Below are positions 3,404-22,745 of a stretch of 22,745 nucleotides of DNA, piece after piece. The DNA comes from a virus. Below the pieces are notes generated by a model, which saw nothing but the letters and a program-made list of their open reading frames with translations, ran no database searches and had not been told where the DNA came from. The position numbers and the translations under genes were made by a program. The DNA lies in the IMG/VR virus record IMGVR_UViG_3300027844_001934, positions 1 through 22,745 of that record; one strand, written 5' to 3'. The first letter of the stretch is position 1. Every line of letters begins with the position of its first letter.

Positions 3404-5046
3404 TGGCACAAGATACTTACGCAGGAAATCCTCTTCTTAAAGGGGCATATCAATCATTAGAATATGATAAAGAAACCATAGAAGATTATATTAGGTGTTC
3501 TAAAGATCCTGTATATTTTGCAAAAAACTATATGAAGATTATTCATGTTGATCATGGTTTAATGCCCTTTGATCTTTATGATTATCAGGAAGAAATGGTT
3601 CAGACAATGCATGAGAATCGTTTTGTTATTTGTAAAATGCCTAGACAAACTGGAAAATCAACAACGATTGTTGCTTACTTATTACATTTTGCTCTTTTTA
3701 ATCCACAATCTAATATTGCTATATTAGCAAATAAGGGTTCTACTTCAAGAGAGATTCTTCAAAGATTAAAAACGGCTTATGAGCATTTACCGAAATGGTT
3801 GCAACAAGGTGTAGTTGTTTGGAATAGGGGTAATATTGAATTAGAAAACGGCAGTAAAGTTATATCCGCTTCAACTTCTTCTTCTGCAGTTCGTGGATCG
3901 TCTTTTAATATCATCTTTATGGATGAGTTTGCACACATTGATCCTCCTAAGTTAGCAGAAGATTTTTTTACTTCAGTATATCCTACAATTTCTTCTGGTA
4001 AAACTACTAAAGTTTTTATTGTTTCAACTCCAAAAGGATTGAACATGTTTTATAAGATGTGGATTGATGCTGAAGAGAAAAGAAGTAATTATATTCCCAT
4101 TGAAGTTCATTGGTCCCAAACCCCTGGAAGAGATGATGCATGGAAAAAAGAAACAATAAAAAATACGAGTGAATTGCAATTTGCTCAAGAATATGAATGT
4201 GATTTTATTGGTTCTCAAAATACATTAATTTCTCCTTCAAAATTAAGGACAATGCCTTATAAACCACCTATCATAAAGAAAGATTGCCTAGATGTATATG
4301 TTGAACCAAATCCTAAGCACTCATATGTTTGTATAGTTGATGTTGCAAGAGGAAGAGGCCAAGATTATTCTGCATTTTCAATAATTGATGTTACCCAGTT
4401 TCCATATGAACAAGTTGCAAAATATAGAGATCCAAATATTTCTCCCATGTTATTGCCAAATGTTGTTGATAATGTGGGCAAATATTATAATTCTGCATAT
4501 GTCTTAGTTGAAATAAATGATATTGGTGGTCAAGTAGCAGATATTTTACACTATGATTTAGAATATCCTAATATTTTTCAGACAAGTGTTATGGGGAGGT
4601 CTGGTCAAACTTTGGGTGGGGGATTTGGAAAAAGTTCACAACTAGGAATTAGAACCACAAAAGAAGTTAAAAGAAAAGGGTGTTCTAGTTGTAAAGATTT
4701 GATAGAAGGAGATAAATTACTTGTTTGGGATCTTGATACTATTACTGAAATGACAACATATATTGCTAAAGGATCTAGTTACGAAGCAGATGAAGGATAT
4801 CATGATGACTTGATGATGACTTTAATTTTGTTTGGCTGGTTAGTGAATCAAAAATATTTTACAGAAGTTACAGATATGGATTTACGTGAAAAAATGTTTA
4901 AAGAGCAATTAGAAGAAGCAGAAGCACAATTGATACCTTTTGGTTATATAAATGATGGAAGAGATTCTTATGAACCAGAAACTGTTGATATGGGTGGTGA
5001 AAAATGGGTAATAGATAAAGAATATTCTACAGAATATTTACATTAA
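3403..5046 (+). CDS. 17: Terminase large subunit gp17 (packaging ATPase-nuclease)
   Basis: 547 residues (T4 gp17 is 610). This motor protein docks on the portal, hydrolyses ATP to translocate DNA into the prohead, and cuts the concatemer. The N-terminal ATPase domain has a Walker A motif at residues 80-87 (PRQTGKST, Lys85), a Walker B motif at 170-175 (IIFMDE, Asp174/Glu175) and the coupling motif VSTPKG at 207-212. The C-terminal RNase H-like nuclease domain shows Asp313 in VDVARG, Glu370 in LVEIND, and Asp468/Asp469 in YHDD, matching the catalytic acid triad of T4 gp17. No intein or frameshift is visible. The start overlaps the preceding stop as TAATG. The last 20 bases overlap the convergent HNH gene. 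Confidence 0.95.
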   Translation: MAQDTYAGNPLLKGAYQSLEYDKETIEDYIRCSKDPVYFAKNYMKIIHVDHGLMPFDLYDYQEEMVQTMHENRFVICKMPRQTGKSTTIVAYLLHFALFNPQSNIAILANKGSTSREILQRLKTAYEHLPKWLQQGVVVWNRGNIELENGSKVISASTSSSAVRGSSFNIIFMDEFAHIDPPKLAEDFFTSVYPTISSGKTTKVFIVSTPKGLNMFYKMWIDAEEKRSNYIPIEVHWSQTPGRDDAWKKETIKNTSELQFAQEYECDFIGSQNTLISPSKLRTMPYKPPIIKKDCLDVYVEPNPKHSYVCIVDVARGRGQDYSAFSIIDVTQFPYEQVAKYRDPNISPMLLPNVVDNVGKYYNSAYVLVEINDIGGQVADILHYDLEYPNIFQTSVMGRSGQTLGGGFGKSSQLGIRTTKEVKRKGCSSCKDLIEGDKLLVWDLDTITEMTTYIAKGSSYEADEGYHDDLMMTLILFGWLVNQKYFTEVTDMDLREKMFKEQLEEAEAQLIPFGYINDGRDSYEPETVDMGGEKWVIDKEYSTEYLH

Positions 5047-5449
5047 TGCGATGAATGTTTTTGGGTTCTTTTATTTGATCAATTAATTTGTCTATATCGT
5101 ATTTTAAATCAGGTCTTAATTTTTTTAATTTTTGTAAATATCTTACAGATTCATTGAATATCATTTCAGGATTAATTCTTAATTCATAAAATTTATTTCT
5201 CGTTTCACTTTTTGTAGTTAAATATAAATGCTCCGGTTTTACGCAATATGTATTATTGCATGATTGATGAACTATTTTATTCTGTTCAATAGTTCCTTTA
5301 TAAGCAATATATGCAAATCTATGGGCGGGAATTGATTTTCCATCATATGAAAACATACCATAACCCTGCTTTGTTTTACTTGCAGTCCAAAACCAACAAT
5401 CAGTTGTTTTTAAAATTTTCTTTTCAAATCTCTCAATAGCCTTTTTCAT
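5027..5449 (-). CDS. HNH endonuclease, probably free-standing homing type
   Basis: 140 residues on the minus strand. The core runs from DCWFWTASKTKQGYG (Cys18) through PAHRFAYIAYKG (His43-Arg44) to VHQSCNNTYCVKPEHLYL, with His61, Cys64, Asn65/66, Cys69 and His74. This is the HNH_3-type beta-beta-alpha metal nuclease signature, with the histidine, asparagine and Cys pair in the usual spacing. Residues 75-140 form a helical, Lys-rich tail that could help DNA recognition. Such genes are common selfish insertions between conserved genes in T4-like phages and usually nick or cleave a site in phages lacking them. It is antisense to its neighbours and overlaps the 3' end of gene 17, and it has its own late promoter octamer. 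It could instead be a domesticated packaging nuclease; homing is the likelier reading. Confidence 0.85.
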   Translation of the reverse strand: MKKAIERFEKKILKTTDCWFWTASKTKQGYGMFSYDGKSIPAHRFAYIAYKGTIEQNKIVHQSCNNTYCVKPEHLYLTTKSETRNKFYELRINPEMIFNESVRYLQKLKKLRPDLKYDIDKLIDQIKEPKNIHRINVNIL

Positions 5450-8589: not shown

Positions 8590-10272
8590 ATGCCTATTGA
8601 ACTATTCGGTTTTTCAATCGGAAAAAAAGAACAGAAAAACGTAAAAGCCCAAACTTTTGCTGAAGCAGAATATGAAGACGGAGCATTGACTGTAGCATCT
8701 GGTGGTGTCTATGGAACATATGTTGATACAGAAGGGGCTGTAAAAAGTGAGTCTGAACTAATAAACAGATATCGTGATATGGGTCTTCAAGCAGAAGTAG
8801 AAAATGCTATTGATGATATTATCAATGAAGCAATTGTGGCGGCGAAAGACAAACCTCTCATAAGAATTAATGTAGACAATTTAAATGTTTCTGAGCCCAT
8901 CAGAGATAAAATAAGACTAGAATTTAAGCAAATAAGTAAACTTCTAGATATACAAAATCTAGGACATGATATTTTTAGAAGATGGTATATTGATGGTAGA
9001 ATTTATTATCATGTTATTGTCGATGAAAATAATATGGAAAAAGGCATTCATGAATTAAGAGTATTAGATCCTAGAAAAATAAAGAAAATTCGAGAAAAGA
9101 AAAAAGAAAAACAGCCGGATGGTAAAGTAAAAACAACCATTACAGAATATTATGTTTATAATCAAAAGGGAATTTATCAATCACAAGGACAAGTAATCGG
9201 AACTGCTTTTACAAGTGCCGCTAGTGGTTTAAAAATAGCTCCTGATGCGATTGTATATACACATTCAGGACTGATGAATGCTACCCGTTCATTGGTTTTA
9301 TCCTACCTACACAAAGCAATTAAACCATTAAATCAATTAAGAATGATTGAAGATTCTCTGGTAATTTATCGTATTTCACGGGCACCAGAGAGGAGAATTT
9401 TTTATGTTGATGTTGGTAACCTACCTAAATTAAAAGCAGAACAATACATGCGTGATTTAATGACCAGATATAAAAACAAACTGGTATATGATGCAAACAC
9501 TGGTGAAGTTAGAGATGACAGAAAACATATGTCAATGCTTGAAGATTATTGGATGCCGAGAAGAGAGGGTGGGAGAGGAACAGAAATTTCTACTCTACCT
9601 GGTGGTTCAAATCTTGGGGACATTGAAGATGTGTTATATTTTCAGAAAAAACTTTACAAATCATTAGGTGTTCCTATTTCAAGACTTGAATCAGAAGCAA
9701 ATTATACAATTGGTCGTGCTACAGAAATTTCAAGAGATGAAGTTAAATTTACACGTTTTGTTAATAAACTTCAAAGCAGATTTAGTTTAATGTTTGATGA
9801 GATTATGGAAAGACAATTAACCCTTAAAGGAATAATGTCTAGAGAAGATTGGAAAAATGTTAAGAATGAAATATTTTATGAGTTTGAAAATGATAGTCAT
9901 TTTGCAGAAATAAAGCATAATGAACTTTTTCAAGATCGATTAAACATTTTAAGAGATTTACAAGATTATGCTGGAAAATATTGGTCGCATGAATATATTA
10001 GAAAGCATATTTTAATGATGACAGATGATGAAGTTAAAACTAATGATGAACAGATGCAAAAAGAGATAGACGATCCTAGATTTTCGGGAGAAGAAGATAT
10101 GCAGTTCAATTCTGCAGAAATAGATACTACTAATAAACAAATTATTAATGAGGATATTGATAAAAAAATTGAAGAGAAATTTGAAGTTGCGAAAAAAGAA
10201 AATGAAATTAAAGATAAAGTGAATGATATTCTTTTTTCTGTTTTAGAAGACGATGAAAAATTTGTAGATTGA
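8590..10272 (+). CDS. 20: Portal vertex protein gp20
   Basis: 560 residues (T4 gp20 is 524). Twelve copies form the portal ring that nucleates head assembly and is the docking site for gp17. The match to T4 gp20 is clear along the chain: ELINRYRDMG, DIFRRWYIDGRIYYHVI, HELRVLDPRKIKKIRE, AIVYTHSGLM, VIYRISRAPERRIFYVDVG, LVYDANTGEVRDD, MLEDYWMPRREGG and STLPGGSNLGDIEDV. The C-terminal ~80 residues are charged and coiled-coil-like (DKKIEEKFEVAKKENEIKDK). A good ribosome binding site (AGGAAA) lies about 6 nt before the ATG, downstream of the hairpin at 8521-8576. The next gene is not a prohead core or protease gene but a giant fibre gene, starting 27 nt later. Confidence 0.95.
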   Translation: MPIELFGFSIGKKEQKNVKAQTFAEAEYEDGALTVASGGVYGTYVDTEGAVKSESELINRYRDMGLQAEVENAIDDIINEAIVAAKDKPLIRINVDNLNVSEPIRDKIRLEFKQISKLLDIQNLGHDIFRRWYIDGRIYYHVIVDENNMEKGIHELRVLDPRKIKKIREKKKEKQPDGKVKTTITEYYVYNQKGIYQSQGQVIGTAFTSAASGLKIAPDAIVYTHSGLMNATRSLVLSYLHKAIKPLNQLRMIEDSLVIYRISRAPERRIFYVDVGNLPKLKAEQYMRDLMTRYKNKLVYDANTGEVRDDRKHMSMLEDYWMPRREGGRGTEISTLPGGSNLGDIEDVLYFQKKLYKSLGVPISRLESEANYTIGRATEISRDEVKFTRFVNKLQSRFSLMFDEIMERQLTLKGIMSREDWKNVKNEIFYEFENDSHFAEIKHNELFQDRLNILRDLQDYAGKYWSHEYIRKHILMMTDDEVKTNDEQMQKEIDDPRFSGEEDMQFNSAEIDTTNKQIINEDIDKKIEEKFEVAKKENEIKDKVNDILFSVLEDDEKFVD

Positions 10273-10298: not shown

Positions 10299-13200
10299 AT
10301 GAAAGATGAAGAAAAAGAGTCGAAAGACTTAGATTTAAGTAAAGTTCTAGCTACTGCTCTTGCTTATACTAAAAAACAATTAAAAAAGACTAAAGAAGAA
10401 CTCGTTGAGGGTGTAAGAGAAATTTTAGACCCTGTTACTGGTGAAAAAGTCAAAGTTCTTGAGATTAAAGGTACTGAAGGATCCAAGGGCGAAAAGGGTG
10501 AAAAGGGCTCTGCGGGAGAAGCAGGATCTAAAGGAGAAGCAGGAGAAGCAGGAAGAATTGGTCCACAAGGTGTTCTGGGTCCTAAGGGGGATCTGGGAGA
10601 TGTTGGTCCCATAGGCCCAAAAGGAGACCAGGGAGAAGCTGGTGATGATGCTGAAGTAACTCGACTTGAGATAGAAATAGAAGGCATCAAAAAAGTTGTT
10701 AAAGAAGTTAGTTCAAAAGCAACTCAAACTGCACAAAGAGTAGCAGGAGGAAGCGGTTGGGGTGAAGGCGGTGGCGGAGGAGGAGGAGGAGATGGAACAC
10801 ATGGAACTTCTGGCTCTGCAGGATCATCTGGTGAGACTGATGGAACATCTGGATCTTCTGGTGTTGATGGATCATTTTTAGGCACATCTGGATCTTCTGG
10901 TGTTGCTGGAACATCTGGATCTGCTGGATCTGCAGGAAGTGCTGGATCATCTGGTCGTGATGCATCTTCTGGTTCATCTGGAGGAACAGGAAGTCATGGA
11001 TCATCTGGATCTACAGGTACTTCTGGTTCATCTGGATTAACTTATGCTTCTTCTGGCTCTGCAGGAACCGCGGGATCGTCTGGACAAGATGGTGGTTCTT
11101 ATATTCATATTCAATCTTCAGCTACACTTGTCTGGCTGATAAATCACAATTTAAATACTAGACCGATAAACATATTAGTAGTAGATACTAATTATAATGT
11201 AATTTATCCTGAATCTATTCAATTTATAGATTCAAATAATGTAAAAATAATTTGGCCTACTATACAAGCAGGATTTGCTTCAATTACTTTTGGTGAAGGA
11301 AGTTCTGGAACTTCTGGTTCTTCTGGATTAACATATGCTTCTTCTGGGTCTTCTGGAACTGCGGGTTCTGCAGGAAGTTCTGGCTCTACGGGTTCATCTG
11401 GTTCTGCAGGAAGCTCTGGTTCTTCAGGAACTATGGGAACTTCTGGATCTTCCGGATCTTCAGGAACTGCTGGAACATCTGGATCAGATGGTGAACAAGG
11501 AGAAACTGGACTAGAAGGAACTTCTGGATCGTCAGGAACTACTGGAACACATGGAAGTTCTGGTTCTGCTGGATCGTCAGGAACTGCTGGAACATCTGGA
11601 TCAGATGGAACAGTAGGAGATACAGGACCTCCAGGAGCTGCCTCCGCTGGATCATCTGGTTCTGCAGGAAGCGCAGGAACTGCTGGATCATCTGGAGTAG
11701 ATGGACTGCCTGGTGGAAATCATATTCATACTCAATCTTCAGCTACACTTGTCTGGCTGATAAATCACAATTTAAATACACGACCATTAAATATTGAAGT
11801 TGTAGATTCTAATTATAATGTAATTATTCCAGAATCTACTCAGTATATAGATTCAAATAATGTAAAAATAATTTTTGCTTCTTCTCAATCAGGATATGCC
11901 GCAATAACTTTGGGAGAAGGATCTTCTGGTACTTCGGGAACTTCTGGATTAACATATGCTTCATCTGGGTCTTCTGGAACTTCTGGAACTACTGGATCAT
12001 CTGGTTCTGCAGGAACTTCTGGAACTGCTGGAACTTCTGGAACTGCGGGATCGTCTGGTCTAGATGGGGGTTTTGGAGGAGCTTCATTTTCATATGTTTA
12101 TAACACTACACAAGGGACGAATGATCCAGGATCAGGCAAATTAGCATTTACATTAACATCTGGTACTTTTACAACTCCTGATCAAGCTAATAGATTAAGA
12201 ATAAGTGATACTGATCAAGACGGAACAACAATTGATAATTTTTTACAGACAATTGATGATTCTACTGGTACCCCAAAAGGACATTTACGAATTTATGATA
12301 AAGATGATCCTGATGAATTTATGTTATTTAGTATCAATGGATTTGATGGTACTCCAAATCCTTCATGGTATTATGTAAAAGTTACATATTTAAATTCTTC
12401 ATTAACTGATTTTCAAAATGCAGTTGAACTTGTGGCATCCTTTGCGAGAACTGGTGATGCGGGAACATCTGGAACTACTGGATCTGCTGGCTCTGCAGGA
12501 AGCGCAGGTAGTGCTGGTTCTGCTGGTTCTGCTGGAAGTGCTGGAACTGCAGGAAGTGCTGGTAGCTCTGGAACTGGGGGTTCTTCAGGAACTGCTGGAT
12601 CGTCTGGAAAAACATATGCTTCATCAGGAAGTGCTGGATCGTCTGGACACACTTATGCTTCATCTGGTTCTTCAGGAGAAGCAGGAATTCAGGGAATTCA
12701 AGGAAGTAGTGGATCGGCTGGACAAGATGGTGGTTCCTATATTCATCCTCAATCTGTAGCTTCATCTGTCTGGATAATAAATCATAATTTAGGAACTAGA
12801 CCTTTAAATATTGAAGTTGTAAATTTTGATTATGATGTAATTTATCCAGAATCAATTCGATATATAGACTCTAATACTGCTAAAGTAGTTTTTGCTTCAG
12901 CAATAGCAGGATATGCCGCATTAACTTTTGGGGAAGGAAGTTCTGGAACTTCTGGATCTTCGGGAACTTCTGGATCATCTGGTTCTGCAGGAAGCGCAGG
13001 GAGTGCTGGTTCTGCTGGCTCTGCAGGAAGTGCTGGTTCATCTGGATTAACATATGCTTCATCTGGATCTTCTGGTTCTACTGGATCTGCAGGAAGTGCT
13101 GGAAGTGCTGGTTCTTCTGGACAAGATGGTGGTTCTTATATCCATACTCAATCTGTAGCTTCACTTGTCTGGCATATAAATCATAATTTAGGAACTAGAC

Positions 13201-14987
13201 CTTTAAATATTGAAGTTGTAAATACTAATTATGATGTAATTTTTCCAGAATCAACTCAATATATAACTTCTAATGATGTAAAAATAATCTTTCCTTCAGC
13301 AACAGCAGGATGGGCCGCATTAACTTTTGGTGAAGGAAGTTCTGGAACTTCTGGTAGTGCTGGATCATCTGGATTAACATATGCTTCATCTGGCTCTGCT
13401 GGCTCTGCAGGAAGTGCTGGAAGTGCTGGTTCTGCAGGAAGCGCAGGAAGTGCAGGAAGTGCAGGAAGTGCTGGTTCTGCTGGTTCATCTGGAACTTCTG
13501 GGACATCTGGATCTGCTGGCTCTGCAGGAAGCACAGGAAGTGCTGGTTCTGCAGGAAGTGCTGGCTCTGCTGGTTCTGCTGGTTCTTCTGGAACTTCTGG
13601 GACATCTGGTTCTGCTGGCTCTGCAGGAAGCGCAGGAAGTGCAGGAAGTGCAGGAAGTGCTGGTTCTGCTGGTTCATCTGGAACTTCTGGAACTTCTGGG
13701 ACATCTGGATCTGCTGGCTCTGCAGGATCCGCAGGAAGTGCTGGCTCTGCAGGAAGTGCAGGAAGTGCTGGATCATCTGGTCGTGATGGTGTTTTTGGTG
13801 GGGCGGCTTTCGAATATGATTTTGAAGATACATCGTTTACAGGAGCCCCAAGTGATCCAGGTGCTGGTAAACTTGAAGTAGGAATTGATACTGGATCTGC
13901 TCCCACAGATTTTTCTACAGTTGACAGAATTTCTATAAGTGAAGTTGATGTAAATGGAACATCAACAGAAAGTTTTTTAAGTCAAGTTCAAACAGCAACA
14001 TCTGCAATTAAAGGTCATGTAAGAATTCATCGAAAAACGTATTCTGAACAATATGTAATGTTTACAATTTCAAACGTTACTAATGATTCGGGTTTTCAAG
14101 AAATAGAAGTTTCAAAAATCGGTGGAGAAAATGCATTTTTTGCTGATGATCAAGATATAGTTGTTACATTTGCAAGAACTGGTGATGCTGGAACATCTGG
14201 TTCTGCAGGATCTTCTGGACACACTTATGCTTCTTCTGGTTCATCTGGCTCTGCTGGAACTTCTGGAACTTCTGGAACTTCAGGAACTGCTGGATCATCT
14301 GGACAAGATGGTAGTTCTTTTTATCATACACAATCTGTAGCTTCAATGACTTGGTTAATAACTCATAATTTAGGATTGAGGGTTGTAAATGTAGAAGTTA
14401 CAAATGATAATTATAATTCAATTTTTCCAGAATCAATTCAATTTATAGATGATAGTAATGTAAAAATTGTATTTCCTACAGCAATAGCAGGATATGCCGC
14501 ATTAACTTATGGAGAAGGAACTTCTGGTACATCAGGAACCGCTGGTTCTTCTGGACATACTTATGCTTCATCTGGTTCTGCTGGAAGCGCAGGAAGTGCT
14601 GGTTCTGCAGGTAGTTCTGGAAGTTCAGGAACTGCTGGATCTTCGGGACTTTTACACCTAAATAATTCTGCGGAAGATCGTCTAATTTCTATCAATGCTG
14701 ATACTGTTACTGGTGATGCAGAAACAAATTTAACATTTGATGGTAATGAATTAAGTGTGACTGGTAAAACGTTTTTGGTAGGTACAAGTGGAACAACTGG
14801 ATTTGTACAGATGTCTCAAAGAGATGATGTTTCTGGAAATAAACCTACTTTGTCTGCAGGTCAATCTGCAGTTTTTTCAAGTTCTTCGGGGGCAGGAGGA
14901 ACAGGTATATATTTTAAACAAGGAACTGATGATCCCGATGAATTAGTTTCACGCAAAAAAGCGATAACTTATGGATTAATATTCTAA
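10299..14987 (+). CDS. Giant collagen-like modular fibre protein, 1562 aa
   Basis: Probable virion fibre or adhesin. Residues 1-57 are a charged helical segment. Residues 58-115 are 20 perfect charged Gly-X-Y triplets ([10 protein letters not shown] type), followed by a short coiled coil (about 119-147) and a run of 8 Gly (157-164). The rest is Gly-Ser-Ala/Ser/Thr triplets, with almost no Pro, interrupted by globular modules. Five are 70-residue beta modules (W-x-I-x-H-N-L, T-R-P, V-x-x-x-Y-x-x-I-x-P-E-S, F-G-E-G) at 11091-11300, 11712-11921, 12729-12938, 13128-13337 and 14310-14519. Two are ~130-residue modules ending F-A-R-T-G-D at 12072-12458 and 13794-14186. Modules of both kinds are familiar in phage fibres. 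The C-terminal ~110 residues end [16 protein letters not shown], like other phage fibre ends. Nine TYASSG motifs break triplet phase. Confidence 0.85.
13338..13793 (+). repeat. Gly-Ser-Ala/Thr triplet tract, longest in first fibre
   Basis: About 150 residues of nearly uninterrupted Gly-X-Y triplets (GSA, GSS, GTS) between two globular modules. At the DNA level this is a degenerate 9/18-bp repeat, with Ser switching between AGT/AGC and TCT/TCA and Gly and Ala third bases varying. No Pro occurs in the tract. Confidence 0.9.
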
Positions 14988-14988
14988 T

Positions 14989-15309
14989 ATGTCAATCGAA
15001 ACAAATTTAATAGCGAGTACATCATCCGCAACTCCTACTACGGTTTATACTTCATCAGGAGAGTCTGCAATTACAACAATATTTTTTTGTAATACAGATG
15101 CTTCAGATAGAATTATAACCGTTTGGATTGTTCCTAGTGGCGACACTTTGGGTGATGAGCATATGATAATGAAGGAATTAACAATAAATGCAACTGATAC
15201 TTTTGCTTTTGGAAGCGAGAGAATCTTGATGGGTGCAAGTGACACTATTCAAGCAATTGCTGATACAATTAACAAAGTTTCAGTGGTAATTAGTTATACG
15301 AGTATTTAA
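14989..15309 (+). CDS. Small probable structural protein between the two fibres, 106 aa
   Basis: 106 residues, beta-rich, starting [20 protein letters not shown] and containing [20 protein letters not shown] and a final [10 protein letters not shown] strand. The pattern (a Thr/Ser-rich first strand, xxFFCNT, a hydrophobic strand, ...INATDTFAF...ERI, a final strand) is like small single-domain virion proteins found near fibre genes in marine T4-like phages; this is recognition from memory. It has no signal peptide or Gly-rich repeats. Spacing is tight: 1 nt after the first fibre, and its stop overlaps the second fibre start as TAATG. A connector or cap between fibre segments is plausible but not shown by the sequence. 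Confidence 0.7.
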
Positions 15310-18300
15310 TGGCATTATTTCTTAAAGGCGAAAGCCCTGAATTTAGTATAAAAAAATATACAACTTCTGGTTCTGCTGGAAGCGCAGGGAGTGCTGGCTC
15401 TGCAGGAAGCGCAGGAAGCGCCGGCTCTGCTGGTTCTGCAGGAAGTGCTGGATCATCTGGTTCTGCTGGAACATCTGGTTCTGCTGGAACTGCTGGAACT
15501 TCTGGCTCTGCAGGAAGTGCTGGAAGTGCGGGTTCTGCTGGAACTTCGGGAACTTCTGGGACATCTGGATCTGCTGGCTCTGCAGGAAGCGCAGGAAGCG
15601 CAGGAAGCGCAGGAACTTCTGGAACTTCGGGAACTTCTGGGACATCTGGATCTGCTGGCTCTGCAGGAAGTGCTGGAAGTGCTGGAAGTGCAGGTTCTGC
15701 TGGGACATCTGGTACTGCTGGTTCTGCAGGAAGTGCTGGCTCTGCAGGAAGCGCAGGAAGCGCAGGAAGCGCAGGAACTTCTGGAACTTCGGGAACTTCT
15801 GGGACATCTGGATCTGCTGGCTCTGCAGGAAGCGCAGGAAGTGCTGGAAGTGCAGGTTCTGCTGGCTCCGCAGGAAGTGCTGGTTCTTCTGGAACTTCTG
15901 GGACATCTGGTTCTGCTGGTTCTGCAGGAAGTGCTGGCTCTGCTGGTTCTGCAGGAAGTGCTGGCTCTGCTGGTTCATCTGGATTAACTTATGCTTCATC
16001 TGGCTCTGCAGGAAGCGCAGGTAGTGCAGGAAGTGCAGGATCATCCGGTCGTGACGGTGGCTCTTATATTCATATACAATCTACACCTGCACTTGTTTGG
16101 TTAATACCTTATAATTTAGGAACTAGACCAATAAACATTGTGATTGTTGATAACAATTATAATGTTATTACTCCAGAATCAATTCAATTTATAGATTCAA
16201 ATAATGCTAAAGTGGTATTTACTTCTGTTCGGGCAGGATTTGCCACATTGACTTTTGGAGAAGCATCTTCTGGTACATCAGGAAGCGCAGGAACTTCTGG
16301 ATCTTCTGCTTCTGCAGGAACCTCTGGTTCTTCTGGAAGCACAGGAAGCACTGGTTCTGCTGGTTCTGCTGGCTCTGCTGGTTCTACAGGAAGTGCTGGC
16401 TCTGCAGGAAGTGCAGGATCATCTGGTCGTGATGGTGGCACTTATCTTCATACTCAGTCTGTAGCAAATTCTGTTTGGCAGATTCCTTATAATCTTAATA
16501 CACGACCTATAAATTTAGAAGTTGTAGATGAGTATTTTAATGTAATCTATCCAGAATCAACTCAGTATACAGATTCAAATAATGTAAGAATAATATTTCC
16601 TTCTGCACGAACAGGATATGCCGCAGTAACTATGGGAGAAGGAAGTTCTGGAACCTCTGGTTCATCTGGATTAACTTATGCTTCATCTGGTTCTGCAGGA
16701 TCCGCAGGAAGCGCAGGAAGTGCAGGATCATCTGGCTCTGCAGGAAGTGCTGGTTCTGCTGGCTCTGCAGGAAGTGCTGGTTCTGCAGGAACTTCTGGAA
16801 CATCTGGAACTGCAGGAACCGCAGGAACTTCTGGACAAGATGGTGGTTTTGGTGGTGCATCTTTTGAATATGATTTTGAAAGTACAACATTTACAGGAGC
16901 CGCAAGTGATCCAGGTACTGGTATACTTGAAGTAGGAATAGATACTGGATCTGCTCCAACAGATTTTTCTACAGTTGATAGAATTTCTATGAGTGAAGCT
17001 GATGTAAATGGTACATCAACTGAAAGTTTTCTAGTTCAACTCCAAACGGCATCATCTGCAATTAAAGGTCATGTAAGACTAGCAGAGTTTCAGAATATGG
17101 GCGCCTATGTAATGTTCACTATTACAGATGTTGATAATGATTCGGGGTTTCAAGAATTAACAGTTTCAAAAGTTGGTGGACAAGATACATTATTTTCGGA
17201 TAATGCTAATATACTTGTTACATTTGCGAGAACTGGTGATGCAGGAACATCTGGAACTTCTGGTTCATCTGGTTCTGCAGGAAGCGCAGGAAGTGCTGGA
17301 AGTGCTGGTTCTGCAGGAAGTGCTGGATCTGCTGGTTCTGCTGGTTCTTCTGGAAGCGCAGGAACTTCTGGAACTTCTGCTACTGCTGGCTCTGCTGGTT
17401 CTGCAGGAAGCGCAGGAAGTGCTGGCTCTGCTGGCTCTGCAGGAAGTGCTGGTTCTGCAGGAACTGCTGGATCGTCTGGTCAAGATGGTGGTTCTTATAT
17501 CCATACTCAATCTGTAGCTTCACTTGTTTGGCATATTCCTTATAATCTTAATACACGACCTGTAAATATTGAAATTGTTGATGAGTATTATAATGTAATT
17601 ATGCCCGAATCTATTCAATTTATAGATTCAAATAATGTAAAAATAATTTTTGATTCTGCAGTAAAGGGTTGGGCGGCAGTAACTTTTGGAGAAGGAAGTT
17701 CTGGAACTTCTGGTTCATCTGGATTAACTTATGCTTCATCTGGTTCTTCAGGAACTTCTGGATCTTCTGGAAGCGCAGGAAGTGCTGGCTCTGCTGGTTC
17801 TGCTGGAAGCGCAGGATCTGCTGGTTCTGCTGGCTCTGCTGGTTCTGCAGGAACTTCTGGAACTGCAGGAAGTTCTGGTTCTGCTGGAACTGGTGGAACT
17901 GCTGGAACATCTGGCTCTGCAGGAAGCGCAGGAAGTGCTGGCTCTGCAGGAAGTGCTGGATCATCTGGGACATCTGGAACCTCTGGATCATCTGGCTCTG
18001 CTGGAACTGCTGGAACTGCTGGAAGTGCTGGAAGTGCAGGTTCTGCTGGCTCTGCTGGCTCTGCAGGAACTTCTGGCTCTGCAGGAAGCGCAGGAACTGC
18101 TGGAACTGCTGGATCTGCAGGATCTGCAGGAAGTGCTGGTTCTGCTGGTTCTTCTGGAACTTCTGGGACATCTGGTTCTGCAGGAAGTGCTGGTTCTGCA
18201 GGTAGTGCTGGTTCTGCTGGCTCTGCAGGAAGTGCAGGATCATCCGGTCGTGATGGTGGCTCGTATATTCATACACAATCTACACCTGCACTTGTTTGGT

Positions 18301-21300
18301 TAATACCTTATAATTTAACAACTAGACCAATAAACATTGTGATTGTCGATAGCAATTATAATGTAATTTATCCAGAATCAATTCAATTTATAGACTCTGA
18401 TACTGCTAAAGTAGTCTTTACTTCTGCACAAGCAGGATGGGCCACATTGACTTATGGTGAAGGATCTTCTGGAACATCTGGTTCTTCTGGAACTTCTGGT
18501 TCTGCTGGATCTGCAGGAACTGCTGGAACTGCGGGATCATCTGGACAAGATGGAAACTTTGGTGGTGCTTCTTTTCAATTCATTTTTGAAGACACAACAT
18601 TCTCAGGAGCAGGAAGTGATCCTGGTACTGGTAAAATTGAAGTAGGTATTGATACTGGATCTGCTCCTACTGATTGGTCTACAGTCAATAGACTTTCTGT
18701 AAGTGAAACAGATACAAATGGTTCATCGGTTGAAAGTTTTCTAGATCAAGTTGATACATCATCTTCTGCAATTAAGGGTCATATAAAATTATCAAAAACT
18801 TTTGATCCATCTGAATATGTAATGTTCACAATTAATGATCTTACTAATAATTCGGGTTATCAAATTATAGAAGTTGATAAAGTTGGAGGAGTAACTTCAT
18901 TATTTCCTGATGGTGGTACTGTACTTTTTTCTGTTGCAAGAACTGGTGATGTTGGTACATCTGGAACTTCTGGCTCTGCTGGTTCTGCAGGAAGCGCAGG
19001 AAGTGCAGGGAGTGCTGGATCTGCAGGAAGTGCTGGATCTTCTGGAACTTCTGGGACATCAGGAACCGCTGGCTCTGCAGGAAGCGCAGGAAGCGCAGGA
19101 AGTGCTGGTTCTTCTGGACAAGATGGTGGTTCTTATATTCATACACAATCTACACCTGCACTTGTTTGGCATATTCCTTATAATCTTAATACACGACCTG
19201 TAAATATTGAAGTTGTAAATACTAATTATGATGTAATTTTTCCAGAATCAACTCGGTACATAGATTCAAATACTGTAAGAATAGTATTTCCTTCTGCAGT
19301 AGCAGGATGGGCGGCAGTAACTTTTGGTGAAGGAAGTTCTGGAACTGCTGGATCTGCTGGATCTTCTGGATTAACATATGCTTCTTCTGGTTCTGCTGGA
19401 AGCGCAGGGAGTGCTGGCTCTTCAGGAACTTCTGGAACCGCAGGAACTGCTGGCTCTGCTGGATCTGCTGGATCTTCTGGATTAACATATGCTTCTTCTG
19501 GCTCTGCTGGATCTGCAGGAAGTGCTGGCTCTGCTGGTTCTGCAGGAAGCGCAGGAAGTGCTGGAAGTGCAGGTTCTGCTGGATCTGCTGGATCTTCTGG
19601 TTATGCTGGAACATCTGGATCATCTGGATCTGCTGGATCTGCAGGAAGTGCTGGAAGCGCAGGAAGCGCAGGAAGCGCAGGAAGTGCTGGTTCTTCTGGA
19701 CAAGATGGTGGTTCTTATATTCATACTCAATCTGTAGCTTCACTTGTTTGGCATATTCCTTATAATCTTAATACACGACCTGTAAATATTGAAGTTGTAA
19801 ATACTAATTATGATGTAATTTTTCCAGAATCAACTCAATATATAGATTCAAATACTGCAAGAATAGTATTTCCTATTGCAGTAGCAGGATGGGCGGCAGT
19901 AACTTTTGGTGAAGGAAGTTCTGGAACTGCTGGATCTGCTGGATCTTCTGGATTAACATATGCTTCTTCTGGCTCTGCTGGATCTGCAGGAAGTGCTGGA
20001 TCTTCTGGAACTTCTGGGACATCAGGAACCGCTGGCTCTGCTGGATCTGCTGGATCTTCTGGATTAACATATGCTTCATCTGGTTCGACTGGCTCTGCTG
20101 GCTCTGCTGGATCTGCAGGATCTGCAGGAAGTGCTGGCTCTGCAGGAACTTCTGGGTCATCTGGCTCTGCAGGAAGTGCTGGTTCTGCTGGAAGCGCAGG
20201 CTCTGCAGGAAGCGCAGGAAGTGCTGGAAGTGCGGGTTCTGCTGGATCTGCTGGATCTTCTGGTAATGCTGGAACATCTGGATCATCTGGAGCAGATGGA
20301 CTGGCTGGTGGGAATCATATTCATATTCAATCTGTAGCATCACTCGTTTGGTTTATACAGCATGATTTCACAACACGACCATTAAATGTTGAAGTTTGTG
20401 ATACTAATTATAATGTAATTTTTCCAGAATCAACTCAGTATATAGATTCAAATACTGTAAAAATAATCTTTCCTATTGCTCAAGCAGGATATGCCTCAAT
20501 AACTATGGGAGAAGGATCTTCTGGAACTTCTGGTTCTGCTGGATCTTCTGGAATAACATATGCTTCTTCTGGCTCTGCTGGCTCTGCAGGAACTTCTGGA
20601 TTTACAGCTCCTCAGCCGCAAGCCGCCGCTGGACATCTTCAATTTTATTATGATGCGACCACACTTGGAGGACATGCAAATTTACTTATAGACAACGTAA
20701 CTACGCCAACTCAATTGGCCGCTAATATGCCCATCTATTCTTCAAGTGGAGTTACTGGAGTAGCGGCTTTCAAAGTACACGGAACTACTGGACTTGATGG
20801 AGCAACAGTAACTTCTTCTACTGTTAATGTAGGAGGAACTTTAACTACACAAGCTATTATTCCTGTTGCAAATAATACACATGATATTGGTACATCACAA
20901 ATGGTGTATAATGACATGTATGCAGTTACGTTTAATGGAAGAGCAACATCAGCAAACTGGTCTGACTTGGCCGAGAGATATGAATCTGATGAAATCTATG
21001 ATCCAGGAACTGTTTTAGCAATTGGAGGAACAAAAGAAGTTACTTTGTATCAAACTGAAATGCCTTATGCTGGTGTTGTTTCAGATAAACCCGGATTGAG
21101 AATGAATGATGGTATAAAACAAAGAGAAAATGAATTTATGATTTTTATTTGTTTGAAAGGAAGAATATTAGTTAAGATCGAGGGAGGATGTAACAAAGGA
21201 GATTTTATTATAGCTCATAATGATGGAACTGGAAAAGTTATAACTAAATACGAATATACGCCTCATAAACATGATTTAATTGGAATAGCATTATCTAATA

Positions 21301-21332
21301 GTAATGCGGGATTTGTTGAAGTAAAGGTATAA
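15309..21332 (+). CDS. Giant collagen-like modular fibre protein, 2007 aa
   Basis: Paralogue of the 1562-aa protein. It has only a ~19-residue non-repetitive start ([19 protein letters not shown]) and then enters Gly-Ser-Ala/Thr triplets, so it lacks the charged collagen and coiled-coil anchor of the first fibre. Seven 70-residue beta modules lie at 16056-16265, 16434-16643, 17487-17696, 18255-18464, 19125-19334, 19707-19916 and 20307-20516; the first six read I-P-Y-N-L where fibre 1 reads I-N/T-H-N-L. Two ~130-residue modules lie at 16848-17240 and 18558-18950. The C-terminal ~240 residues are non-repetitive ([20 protein letters not shown] ... [20 protein letters not shown] ... [10 protein letters not shown]). 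This resembles C-terminal domains of marine phage fibres and, loosely, the intramolecular-chaperone autoprocessing (peptidase G2) family. It is probably the distal, receptor-facing fibre. No frameshift is visible. Confidence 0.85.
15363..16055 (+). repeat. Long Gly-Ser-Ala/Thr triplet tract at N-terminus of second fibre
   Basis: About 230 residues of Gly-X-Y triplets, the longest uninterrupted arm in the window. The sub-pattern of several GSA triplets followed by two to four GTS triplets recurs about every 35-45 residues. A single LTYASSG motif breaks the phase near 15984. Synonymous changes are dense, so few long exact DNA repeats occur. Confidence 0.9.
19125..20080 (+). repeat. Tandem duplication of fibre segment, period about 582 bp
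   Basis: The module and following linker at 19125-19500 recur at 19707-20080. The 70-residue modules differ at only a few residues (Thr-Pro-Ala versus Val-Ala-Ser near the start, Arg versus Gln before Y-I-D-S, Ser versus Ile in F-P-x-A). The DNA between them is nearly identical through [20 protein letters not shown]. This suggests recent unequal recombination inside the gene. Confidence 0.8.
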
Positions 21333-21333
21333 T

Positions 21334-21873
21334 ATGGGATCACCGTGTCCAGCTAATTTAACAGGATTAACAGTAGTAGTAGGAACAGTAGTAGATGATG
21401 CTGAATTTACTACTGTACGAGATTCTATTAATGCTGAATTTACTCGTAGAGGATTATCAACATCTTCATGGATAGGTTATGTTGATCCTATTGATGCTGA
21501 TGTTTATAATGAAATGCGAAATGAGCTTAATACAAAATTGGGAGGAGTAACTCCTCCTTCTCCTGCACCTTCACTAGGAGGTACAGTTGCGGTTGGTGAA
21601 GTGATCACGGCTTCTGGACATTCTCCTGCATCTATGAATGACTTGATTGAACATTTGGATGAATGGAAAGTTGCTTGTATTTGTGATTGTAACTATTGTA
21701 CCTGTGACTGTAACTATTGTACCTGTGACTGTAACTATTGTACCTGTGATTGTAACTATTGTACCTGTGACTGTAACTATTGTACCTGTGATTGTAACTA
21801 TTGCACTTGTAATTGTAATCATTGTCCGTGTAATTGTAATTATTGTACTTGTAATTGTGCATGGAGCAAATGA
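21334..21873 (+). CDS. Cysteine-array protein (C-x-C-N-Y-C-T heptads), 179 aa
   Basis: 179 residues in two parts. Residues 1-113 contain two related short segments (VVVGTVVDDAEFTTVRDSIN and VAVGEVITASGHSPASMNDL), similar to the G-x-x-I-x-A-x-x-x-N-x-L motif of many phage structural proteins. A Pro-rich linker (VTPPSPAPS) separates them. Residues 115-175 are a tandem seven-residue array: six CDCNYCT units, then CNCNHCP, CNCNYCT and CNC, ending AWSK. The array holds 27 cysteines in 61 residues. This could bind metal ions as a metallothionein-like or stacked-turn structure, or form a disulphide ladder. It starts 2 nt after the second fibre stop and is probably co-expressed, suggesting a virion or fibre-tip role. 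No function is known to me. The ORF is intact and the start follows directly on the fibre gene. Confidence 0.85.
   Translation: MGSPCPANLTGLTVVVGTVVDDAEFTTVRDSINAEFTRRGLSTSSWIGYVDPIDADVYNEMRNELNTKLGGVTPPSPAPSLGGTVAVGEVITASGHSPASMNDLIEHLDEWKVACICDCNYCTCDCNYCTCDCNYCTCDCNYCTCDCNYCTCDCNYCTCNCNHCPCNCNYCTCNCAWSK
21682..21858 (+). repeat. 21-bp tandem repeat coding the cysteine heptads
   Basis: Eight full 21-bp units (21682-21849) and a 9-bp partial unit. Units 1-5 are the same apart from GAT/GAC alternation in the Asp codon. Units 6-8 diverge, first synonymously and then with Asp to Asn, Tyr to His and Thr to Pro changes. All Cys codons in the units are TGT except one TGC in unit 6. Confidence 0.95.
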
Positions 21874-21876
21874 ATT

Positions 21877-22641
21877 ATGCCTATTTTAATTAAAGCCAGT
21901 GAAGATGTTATTATAATAGATGATGAATTAAAAGAAATTAATGTAGAAGAATTAAATGATTTTTTATATGAACATTTAAAATCAAGTAAAATATGTACTA
22001 TTTATGAATTATATCCAGAGACTAATTTAGTAACATATGTCTATTGTATTCGTCCTCAAAATATAAATTATGAAGATTTTTATGAAGCATTTAACAATTA
22101 TTTTATAAAATGTCAAATAAGTTATTCGTATCAAACCAGTATTCCTGTTGCATTATATTCAGTTTTAAAAGAAAATGGGCATTTAAGTAAAAATGAACTT
22201 TATAAAATGATTGAACATTCAGACGAATATGTAGAATATGGTATTGAGCCTCTTGTAAAGTCATTAATCGAATTTCCTGGAATTGAAATTATAGAATCGT
22301 GTCATGGTCATTATAATAAGAATAGCCCTGTAGTAGATAATGATTGGGTGTGTTATGCTTTTGTAGTATTTGGAGCATCAGATTTTGAGAATTTAAATAT
22401 ATTTTCTTTGGCATTACAAAAACAAATCACTCGTATGTTTCAATATTTCCAGCTTGATGATGTGCAAGTTTGGTCTGTAAAAGATTGGTATAAGAGAAAT
22501 GGATTATTAACGAATTTTAGTTATAATAAGGATAAGGGAACTGTTTTTGAAATAGCTTTTAGATATGAAGTAGCAGAGCAGAGTAAAATATTTCAAATGA
22601 TAGAATATTTAGGACAGCAATTACATTATGAAAAATTATAA
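21877..22641 (+). CDS. Unrecognised 254-aa protein with ESCHGHY motif
   Basis: 254-residue acidic, Tyr-rich soluble protein, not confidently assigned. The first ~95 residues look like an alpha/beta domain (MPILIKASEDVIIIDDELKE ... YELYPETNLVTYVYCIRP). The middle contains EYGIEPLVKSLIEFPGIEII followed by ESCHGHY at about residues 147-153. That hydrophobic helix plus P-G-I-x-x-x-x-S-C-x-G-H motif resembles small phage and bacterial proteins of unknown function with LPGI...SCxGHG signatures; here it is embedded in a larger protein. Cys and His could bind metal. The C-terminal ~100 residues alternate strands and helices. It starts 3 nt after the cysteine-array gene, so it may be co-transcribed, and overlaps the next start by 14 nt. 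It could be metabolic or regulatory rather than structural. Confidence 0.7.
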   Translation: MPILIKASEDVIIIDDELKEINVEELNDFLYEHLKSSKICTIYELYPETNLVTYVYCIRPQNINYEDFYEAFNNYFIKCQISYSYQTSIPVALYSVLKENGHLSKNELYKMIEHSDEYVEYGIEPLVKSLIEFPGIEIIESCHGHYNKNSPVVDNDWVCYAFVVFGASDFENLNIFSLALQKQITRMFQYFQLDDVQVWSVKDWYKRNGLLTNFSYNKDKGTVFEIAFRYEVAEQSKIFQMIEYLGQQLHYEKL

Positions 22642-22745
22642 AGAATTCCCAGAATATGTTAGAAAGTTGCCATGGAAATTTGATGTTGAACGTTTGCAGA
22701 AAGAACTTCAGCCCATTAAACCTTTAATGGTATTATGGGATTATG
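22628..22745 (+). CDS. Partial gene, N-terminal 39 codons only
   Basis: An ATG at 22628 opens a frame that stays open to the window end. It encodes MKNYKEFPEYVRKLPWKFDV, then ERLQKELQPI and KPLMVLWDY. It overlaps the 3' end of the 254-aa gene by 14 nt in another frame, typical of the coupled genes in this window. The aromatic, basic start and amphipathic helix suggest a soluble protein, but 39 residues are too few to name it. Confidence 0.55.
   Translation, partial: MKNYKEFPEYVRKLPWKFDVERLQKELQPIKPLMVLWDY

Follow-up and report, generated by a model that had tools for sequence, protein, structure and literature searches.

Radical-SAM maturase genes linked to cysteine-array proteins of the fibre region in tailed phages: a candidate RiPP-like system

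Two described systems, PapB/PapA and CteB/SCIFF, consist of a radical-SAM maturase with SPASM encoded beside a Cys-rich substrate, and CteB is the thioether-forming SCIFF maturase. PapB joins Cys to Asp or Glu, with Cys-Xn-Asp spacings of n = 0-6 accepted (PMC9413430). The phage loci described here have the same arrangement. However, the candidate substrate is a phage protein of 125-534 aa with a tandem array, not a short peptide; array homologues can carry a fibre chaperone, the maturases number three, and neither a protease nor an exporter was noticed at these loci.

The second set of relatives consists of phage fibre proteins. In T4, gp37 forms a His-Fe needle and gp38 is the tip adhesin. 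By general comparison the array protein resembles both in its probable fibre-tip position downstream of a fibre gene and in its repetitive tip, but no sequence relation was found and the array contains Cys, not His. In the T5 fibre protein pb1, the S74 chaperone is cleaved at a Ser with a Lys at +5, a cleavage proposed to unmask receptor binding (PMC4690869). Array homologues, like T5 pb1 and the K1F endosialidase, carry S74 with the Ser...Lys(+5) arrangement, placed right after the array. Unlike those fibres they have a Cys array right before the cleavage site, and their S74 is often divided between a 12-aa stub and a gene of its own, or has been lost.

Elements of the system have been reported separately. 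In 2010 Timms et al. described 11-12 radical-SAM genes in the Campylobacter phages CP220 and CPt10 and a 21-bp intragenic repeat in CPT_0180/CPt10_1891, and did not tie the genes to the repeat (PMC2853527). Nishimura et al. interpreted the 12 such genes of a T4-like ocean genome as Fe-S metabolism (PMC5332604), and radical-SAM cassettes lie in pelagimyophage host-recognition clusters (PMC7029224). No phage RiPP or radical-SAM fibre system, and no joining of radical SAM to a fibre array, was found in the open-access literature. The enzyme and chaperone families are known; we found no precedent for their combination on a phage fibre protein. We analysed a 22,745-nucleotide stretch of phage DNA (hereafter the window; IMG/VR record IMGVR_UViG_3300027844_001934) together with its relatives, and we consider it likely that the array belongs to a RiPP-like phage system and that the Cys array of a fibre tip is cross-linked there by radical-SAM enzymes.

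The array protein and its family

Apart from the array region, the window holds a T4-like myophage structural core followed by two giant collagen-like GSA-repeat fibre genes. The core includes genes for a gp15-type sheath stabiliser, the small and large terminase, gp18 sheath, gp19 tube and gp20 portal; the portal gene (8590-10272, + strand; PF07230, E 3e-177), also used as control query, places the contig in a T4-like myophage. A 140-aa minus-strand ORF lies between the terminase and sheath genes (5027-5449, -), and at the matching place in L109 (2478-2897, -) there is an ORF that, judged by eye, is HNH homing-endonuclease-like. The fibre genes span 10299-14987 (+, 1562 aa) and 15309-21332 (+, 2007 aa, GSA/GTS repeats). 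The second ends just before the array gene starts at 21334, which agrees with the sequence-only reading, where a phage protein in a fibre context, encoded directly downstream of a giant fibre gene, had been proposed. Gene order in L109/L165 and L160 resembles that of the window, with the fibre gene followed by the array gene, and we take this to be the slot where T4-type phages carry a fibre-tip adhesin gene.

The array protein is encoded by an ATG ORF of 179 aa (21334-21873, +) with homologues in viral contigs L002-L018, L160, L164 and L165. It contains 28 Cys, namely C5 and 27 within residues 115-175 (21676-21858, +), where nine C-[ITP]-C-[DN]-C-[NA]-[YHW] heptads place them at 115, 117, 119, 122, 124, 126, 129 and onwards to 175. 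Translation and autocorrelation (peaks of 0.89 at lag 7 and 0.77 at lag 14) confirm the 27-Cys array of period 7 noted earlier, and the C-x-C-x-x-C-x-C spacing then claimed is exact. The stacked metal-binding or disulphide-linked solenoid proposed along with it is a reading of that spacing, and we found no support so far for metal loading, a redox switch or a disulphide solenoid. Cys makes up 0.36% of the other window proteins pooled, and 27 Cys in 61 residues has a probability of ~1e-49 by composition. The protein ends directly after the array in CNCAWSK, without S74. Its N-terminal domain (residues 1-114 by alignment; 21334-21675, +) is modelled by AF2 with pLDDT ~80 over helices 22-38, 55-69 and 101-112, and the alignment shows that divergent homologues have the helical modules INxEFxRR ... 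NEMRNELN in common; it is probably an attachment or recognition domain.

A Pfam search with the window protein gave no match, including none to PF13884 or to metallothionein-type families, and a PDB sequence search with the array protein gave insignificant matches only. Since these searches matched the array protein to no known metal-binding family, zinc-finger or metallothionein assignments were dropped. In the AF2 monomer the array part shows regular 4-residue strands every 7 residues, with pLDDT only ~60, and Foldseek with this model returned nothing significant and no solenoid match; consequently, we build no structural claim on the array model.

Dozens of phages, marine and freshwater ones as well as Campylobacter phages, yielded array proteins in protein and DNA-pattern searches of viral contigs; the isolates with an array are the Campylobacter Firehammerviruses CP220, CPt10, CP21 and IBB_35. 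The number of units per array ranges from ~2 to 26, with the family consensus C-[DNQ]-C-N-[YFH]-(x)-C-[TP]. Among 336 units, 204 have period 7 and 132 have period 8, where an extra residue (Ala, Ser or another) comes after Tyr. All but two of the units (334 of 336) retain the third Cys, position 4 is Asn/Asp, position 5 is Tyr/Phe/His and position 7 is mostly Thr/Pro; the Cys at positions 1 and 3 were demanded by the search pattern. In the tandem paralogues of L031 and L038 the N-terminal domains are 41-69% identical, the arrays 96-100%, and of 29 codons 5-13 differ synonymously but 0-1 non-synonymously. Strong purifying selection thus acts on the peptide that the array encodes, the whole motif included; the array is not a drifting DNA repeat. 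Loss of the array or of its frame had been named beforehand as a possible refutation; homologues from many phages retain the array and keep it in frame. A further tandem pair, at L074:3821-5040, has CNCNY units mixed with CDARCSC units and a common CHNNDG...GFADEW tail.

A tblastn search of isolated phages with the whole window protein found nothing, probably because the low-complexity filter masks the array, and with array DNA and the CP220-type protein as queries convincing matches were obtained in Campylobacter phages only. DNA matches in Staphylococcus, Stenotrophomonas and others (E 0.06-8) were taken as chance. Three pattern matches occurred in 84,980 prokaryote genomes, the closest in the Chloroflexi MAG NAT137; its 161-kb contig bears a T4 portal gene and is thus a phage contig, and a cellular origin of the array was rejected. 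The CP220-type protein (phrog_26958; CP220 CPT_0180, APL47_gp140) has a CDCNYCT array like that of the window, with six annotated units, and a clade-A radical-SAM gene (see below) ~2.2 kb downstream of its gene. It is much longer, at 534 aa, has further Cys-containing sequence of a different kind beyond the array, and is annotated as hypothetical or as N-acetylneuraminate pyruvate lyase. In the Campylobacter phage records HE815464 (CP21_105) and OP654737 the label is "putative N-acetylneuraminate pyruvate lyase", an apparent misannotation. The array proteins are thus a widespread phage family of which we found no prior description, in line with the earlier proposal of an undescribed system.

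Radical-SAM genes at the array loci

Next to the array genes lie genes for radical-SAM enzymes (Pfam PF04055), in some cases with SPASM. Radical-SAM genes were present in 60 of 74 array loci, a redundant set with simple ORF calls, giving 207 HMM matches in 735 kb, and the shortest gaps between array and enzyme genes were 7-18 bp. Eighty control loci around portal genes of related phages (655 kb) gave 3 matches, all of them 6 bp downstream of a Cys array that the control happened to include. The HMM had been trained on the array loci themselves, and the linkage was re-tested with PF04055 and by reciprocal search. With PF04055, in 20 T4-like contigs carrying portal relatives, radical SAM was found in 4 of 5 array-bearing and 0 of 15 array-less contigs, a test that rests on two independent lineages since 3 of the 4 positive contigs are near-identical; in the fifth the array sits at the contig end. 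No radical SAM was found in the array contig G027 (L014, a 43.8-kb fragment). Searching reciprocally from clade A, a Cys-rich array protein lies nearby in 19 of 20 loci, the exception being L182, where the expected place holds just a short N-terminal ORF of an array protein. Other motifs occur among these loci, namely CNSDCAC... joined to S74 in L183/L184 and CGCDAN in L180, where a Cys-rich protein (L180:10779-11450) runs, judged by eye, into Hint/intein-like sequence (CPAPDVPLRMADGT...).

The association may extend to more distant radical-SAM genes, for which a survey found Cys-rich ORFs of other kinds (CTGCTSC, CNCNC, CTCTC) in 19 of 26 loci, against 3 of 80 control loci, those 3 being genuine arrays. 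We read the window array as one case of a wider phage strategy, with the distant set covered by survey only. Phage fibre-like proteins with the Cys arrays CTGCTSCTG, CTCTCT, CNCAC and CACACA were also seen near the distant genes (L186-L211; for example L190:7081-7977, L195:5965-6537, L199:3519-3917 and L204:8356-8763).

The enzymes form three monophyletic clades, A, B and C (support 0.99, 0.99 and 1.00), each present nearly once per locus. SPASM occurs in A and B, and clade C is ~290 aa in most loci and without the SPASM motif. Clade A has an invariant CX3CX2C and SPASM-type Cys. The best NCBIfam relatives are peptide maturases, with the PapB ranthipeptide family first (E to 1e-46) and SCIFF and nif11-type maturases also among them; the best score, 159.6 bits, does not reach the PapB cut-off of 340 bits (NF047865), and with scores this far below the equivalog cut-offs the chemistry cannot be read off. 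An AF2 model of clade A (pTM 0.79) has CteB as its best structural match (5why, E 7e-14), followed by anSME, TigE and SkfB. Pfam reported no PqqD-like RiPP recognition element among the neighbours scanned, and the N-terminal domain of the array protein could act as a leader.

The window ends 872 bp past the array gene and contains no radical-SAM gene, and for the window itself the evidence is synteny with relatives. It was this linkage to radical-SAM and SPASM genes, lying outside the window, that the sequence-only reading missed; its fibre context and maintained array stand, as does its tip role as a likely one. Directly downstream of the array gene is a 254-aa ORF (21877-22641, +) of no known family, followed by the start of a 268-aa gene (22628-22745, +) that is cut by the window end and has a homologue at L160:4168-4971; L002:7295 is the same gene. 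Three relatives reach past the array (L160, L164 and L165), and in all of them A, B and C are downstream of it. Portal identity to the window is 94% in L164 and 89% in L165; in both, clade A, with its CX3CX2C, comes directly after the array. L160, a 161-kb phage contig in a Chloroflexi MAG bin, is 87% identical in DNA over the array end and the next gene. Its array is followed by a 257-aa homologue of the 254-aa ORF, at the equivalent place ahead of the clade A/B/C genes, and by a weak Asp/Asn beta-hydroxylase match (L160:4168-4971; PF05118, E 3e-5), so that both next genes are alike in the window; a 2OG-Fe(II) oxygenase gene also lies within the L160-type cassette.

The S74 junction

In six scanned homologues the Pfam S74 domain (PF13884) starts exactly at the array end, CNCNY|SDxRLK. 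The motif S-D-x-x-[LVM]-K follows the array in 32 of 61 distinct array proteins, many of which stop 12 residues in. Of 13 such stub loci with enough downstream sequence, 8 (L006, L015, L031, L038, L042, L045, L070 and L078) encode the S74 remainder in a gene of its own, 84-103 aa long and located downstream of the array gene. The stub reads SDxRLKxxIxY[MFIL] and the separate gene covers PF13884 positions 16-57; as judged from these sequences, the pair is a naturally split S74 chaperone. S74 is therefore fused, split off as its own gene, or absent in the family. Some of the array proteins without it end exactly at CNCNY or CNCNYS; the window protein, which is missing SDxRLK (catalytic Ser, Lys +5), is another.

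Because the array ends at the S74 cleavage site in many homologues, it probably forms, by analogy with S74 fibres, the C-terminal tip once a trimeric fibre protein has matured. The tip or spike role suggested earlier is accordingly likely, with the array abutting the fibre chaperone in homologues. CPT_0180 is missing from the major bands identified in CP220 virions (PMC2853527, Fig. 3).

Proposed maturation and its alternatives

We propose that the window Cys array is a radical-SAM substrate and fibre tip. The N-terminal domain would link the array protein to the fibre or host-recognition apparatus, and clades A, B and C would install carbon-linked cross-links on the C-terminal Cys array. These would most likely be thioethers of the PapB/CteB type, from Cys to neighbouring Asp/Asn (or Thr), and would turn the repeat into a stiff rod that resists proteases. 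In homologues S74, whether fused or split, would act as the trimerising chaperone and then be cleaved off at the array end, which would expose the array as the distal tip for contacting or piercing the host surface; the window protein has no S74 and stops directly after the array.

These steps differ in strength. The conserved array, the S74 junction and its splitting, the enzyme linkage and the predicted fold class come from sequence data. We take the array, on good grounds, to be a probable substrate of A/B/C. A thioether-stapled rod is a reasonable expectation for the product, given that PapB tolerates spacings of 0-6 and that Asp/Asn occupy array positions 2 and 4, and Thr position 7; alternative radical cross-links or added hydroxylation are possible. 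Trimerisation and virion location of the array protein we infer, and a host-contact or piercing role is tentatively suggested.

The foremost alternative is an unmodified metal-thiolate or Fe-S array, in which Zn or Fe is loaded onto a trimeric Cys rod, comparable to the His-Fe needle of T4 gp37, and the radical-SAM genes have some other target. CxC and CxxC spacings do resemble those of metallothioneins, and the short strands every 7 residues of the AF2 model (array pLDDT only ~60) would suit such a rod. However, this explanation leaves the near-universal, reciprocal linkage to A/B/C peptide maturases unexplained, no metal-binding family was matched, and the non-Cys positions of the motif are constrained too. 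We regard it as unlikely.

Less probable still is an auxiliary metabolic or surface-sugar role for the radical-SAM genes, which would share a host-recognition cassette with the array by chance. Earlier authors took phage radical-SAM genes as metabolic (PMC2853527, PMC5332604, PMC7029224), and a second radical-SAM-like cluster without an array exists (G001:C1 1-24 kb). This cluster (L162/L163, on the NAT137 161-kb phage contig) has ~13 radical-SAM-like genes and no Cys-rich ORF, and possibly serves surface-sugar or other metabolism. The linkage could in part come from a common host-recognition cassette. The array-linked enzymes, however, are three specific peptide-maturase-allied clades, apart from a divergent set of others; they lie 6-18 bp away at the closest, are present and absent together with the array, and have distant members beside different Cys-array types.

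A disulphide-linked solenoid or redox switch formed without enzymatic cross-linking has a slightly lower probability again. It would fit a Cys-dense tandem repeat in a probably extracellular protein, but no oxidase or isomerase was recognised adjoining the array, where radical-SAM maturases are found instead, and the fold searches returned no solenoid. Linkage to A/B/C peptide maturases points to enzymatic cross-linking over simple metal or disulphide chemistry. That slippage generated the array as a tandem repeat with little function, or that it is a Cys sink, is extremely improbable: 21-bp units do repeat, and the CP220 array repeat ("x") was reported as the only intragenic one in that genome (PMC2853527), but paralogues diverge synonymously with invariant amino acids, and the array is maintained across marine, freshwater and Campylobacter phages.

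The conserved radical-SAM genes beside the array gene in relatives suggest that fibre tips may be hardened or functionalised chemically in some phages, in a manner resembling the making of modified peptide antibiotics by bacteria. On balance, and with less assurance than for the array system itself, we favor a broader reading, namely that in many tailed phages two to three radical-SAM maturases cross-link Cys-rich fibre-tip arrays of varied motif (CxCNYCT, CNSDCAC, CTGCTSC, CTCTCT), with S74 fused or split. The array provides an adjacent, co-inherited candidate substrate for phage radical-SAM genes that previously had none. If this is true, it would explain in part why T4-like and Campylobacter phages have so many radical-SAM genes, which had been puzzling, and these proteins would, to our knowledge, be the first virion component matured by RiPP-type enzymes. 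They would also be a source of many new cross-linking enzymes and offer a route to very stable receptor-binding tips, and they would represent a broad class of ribosomal, enzyme-stapled adhesins, with virions built using radical chemistry.
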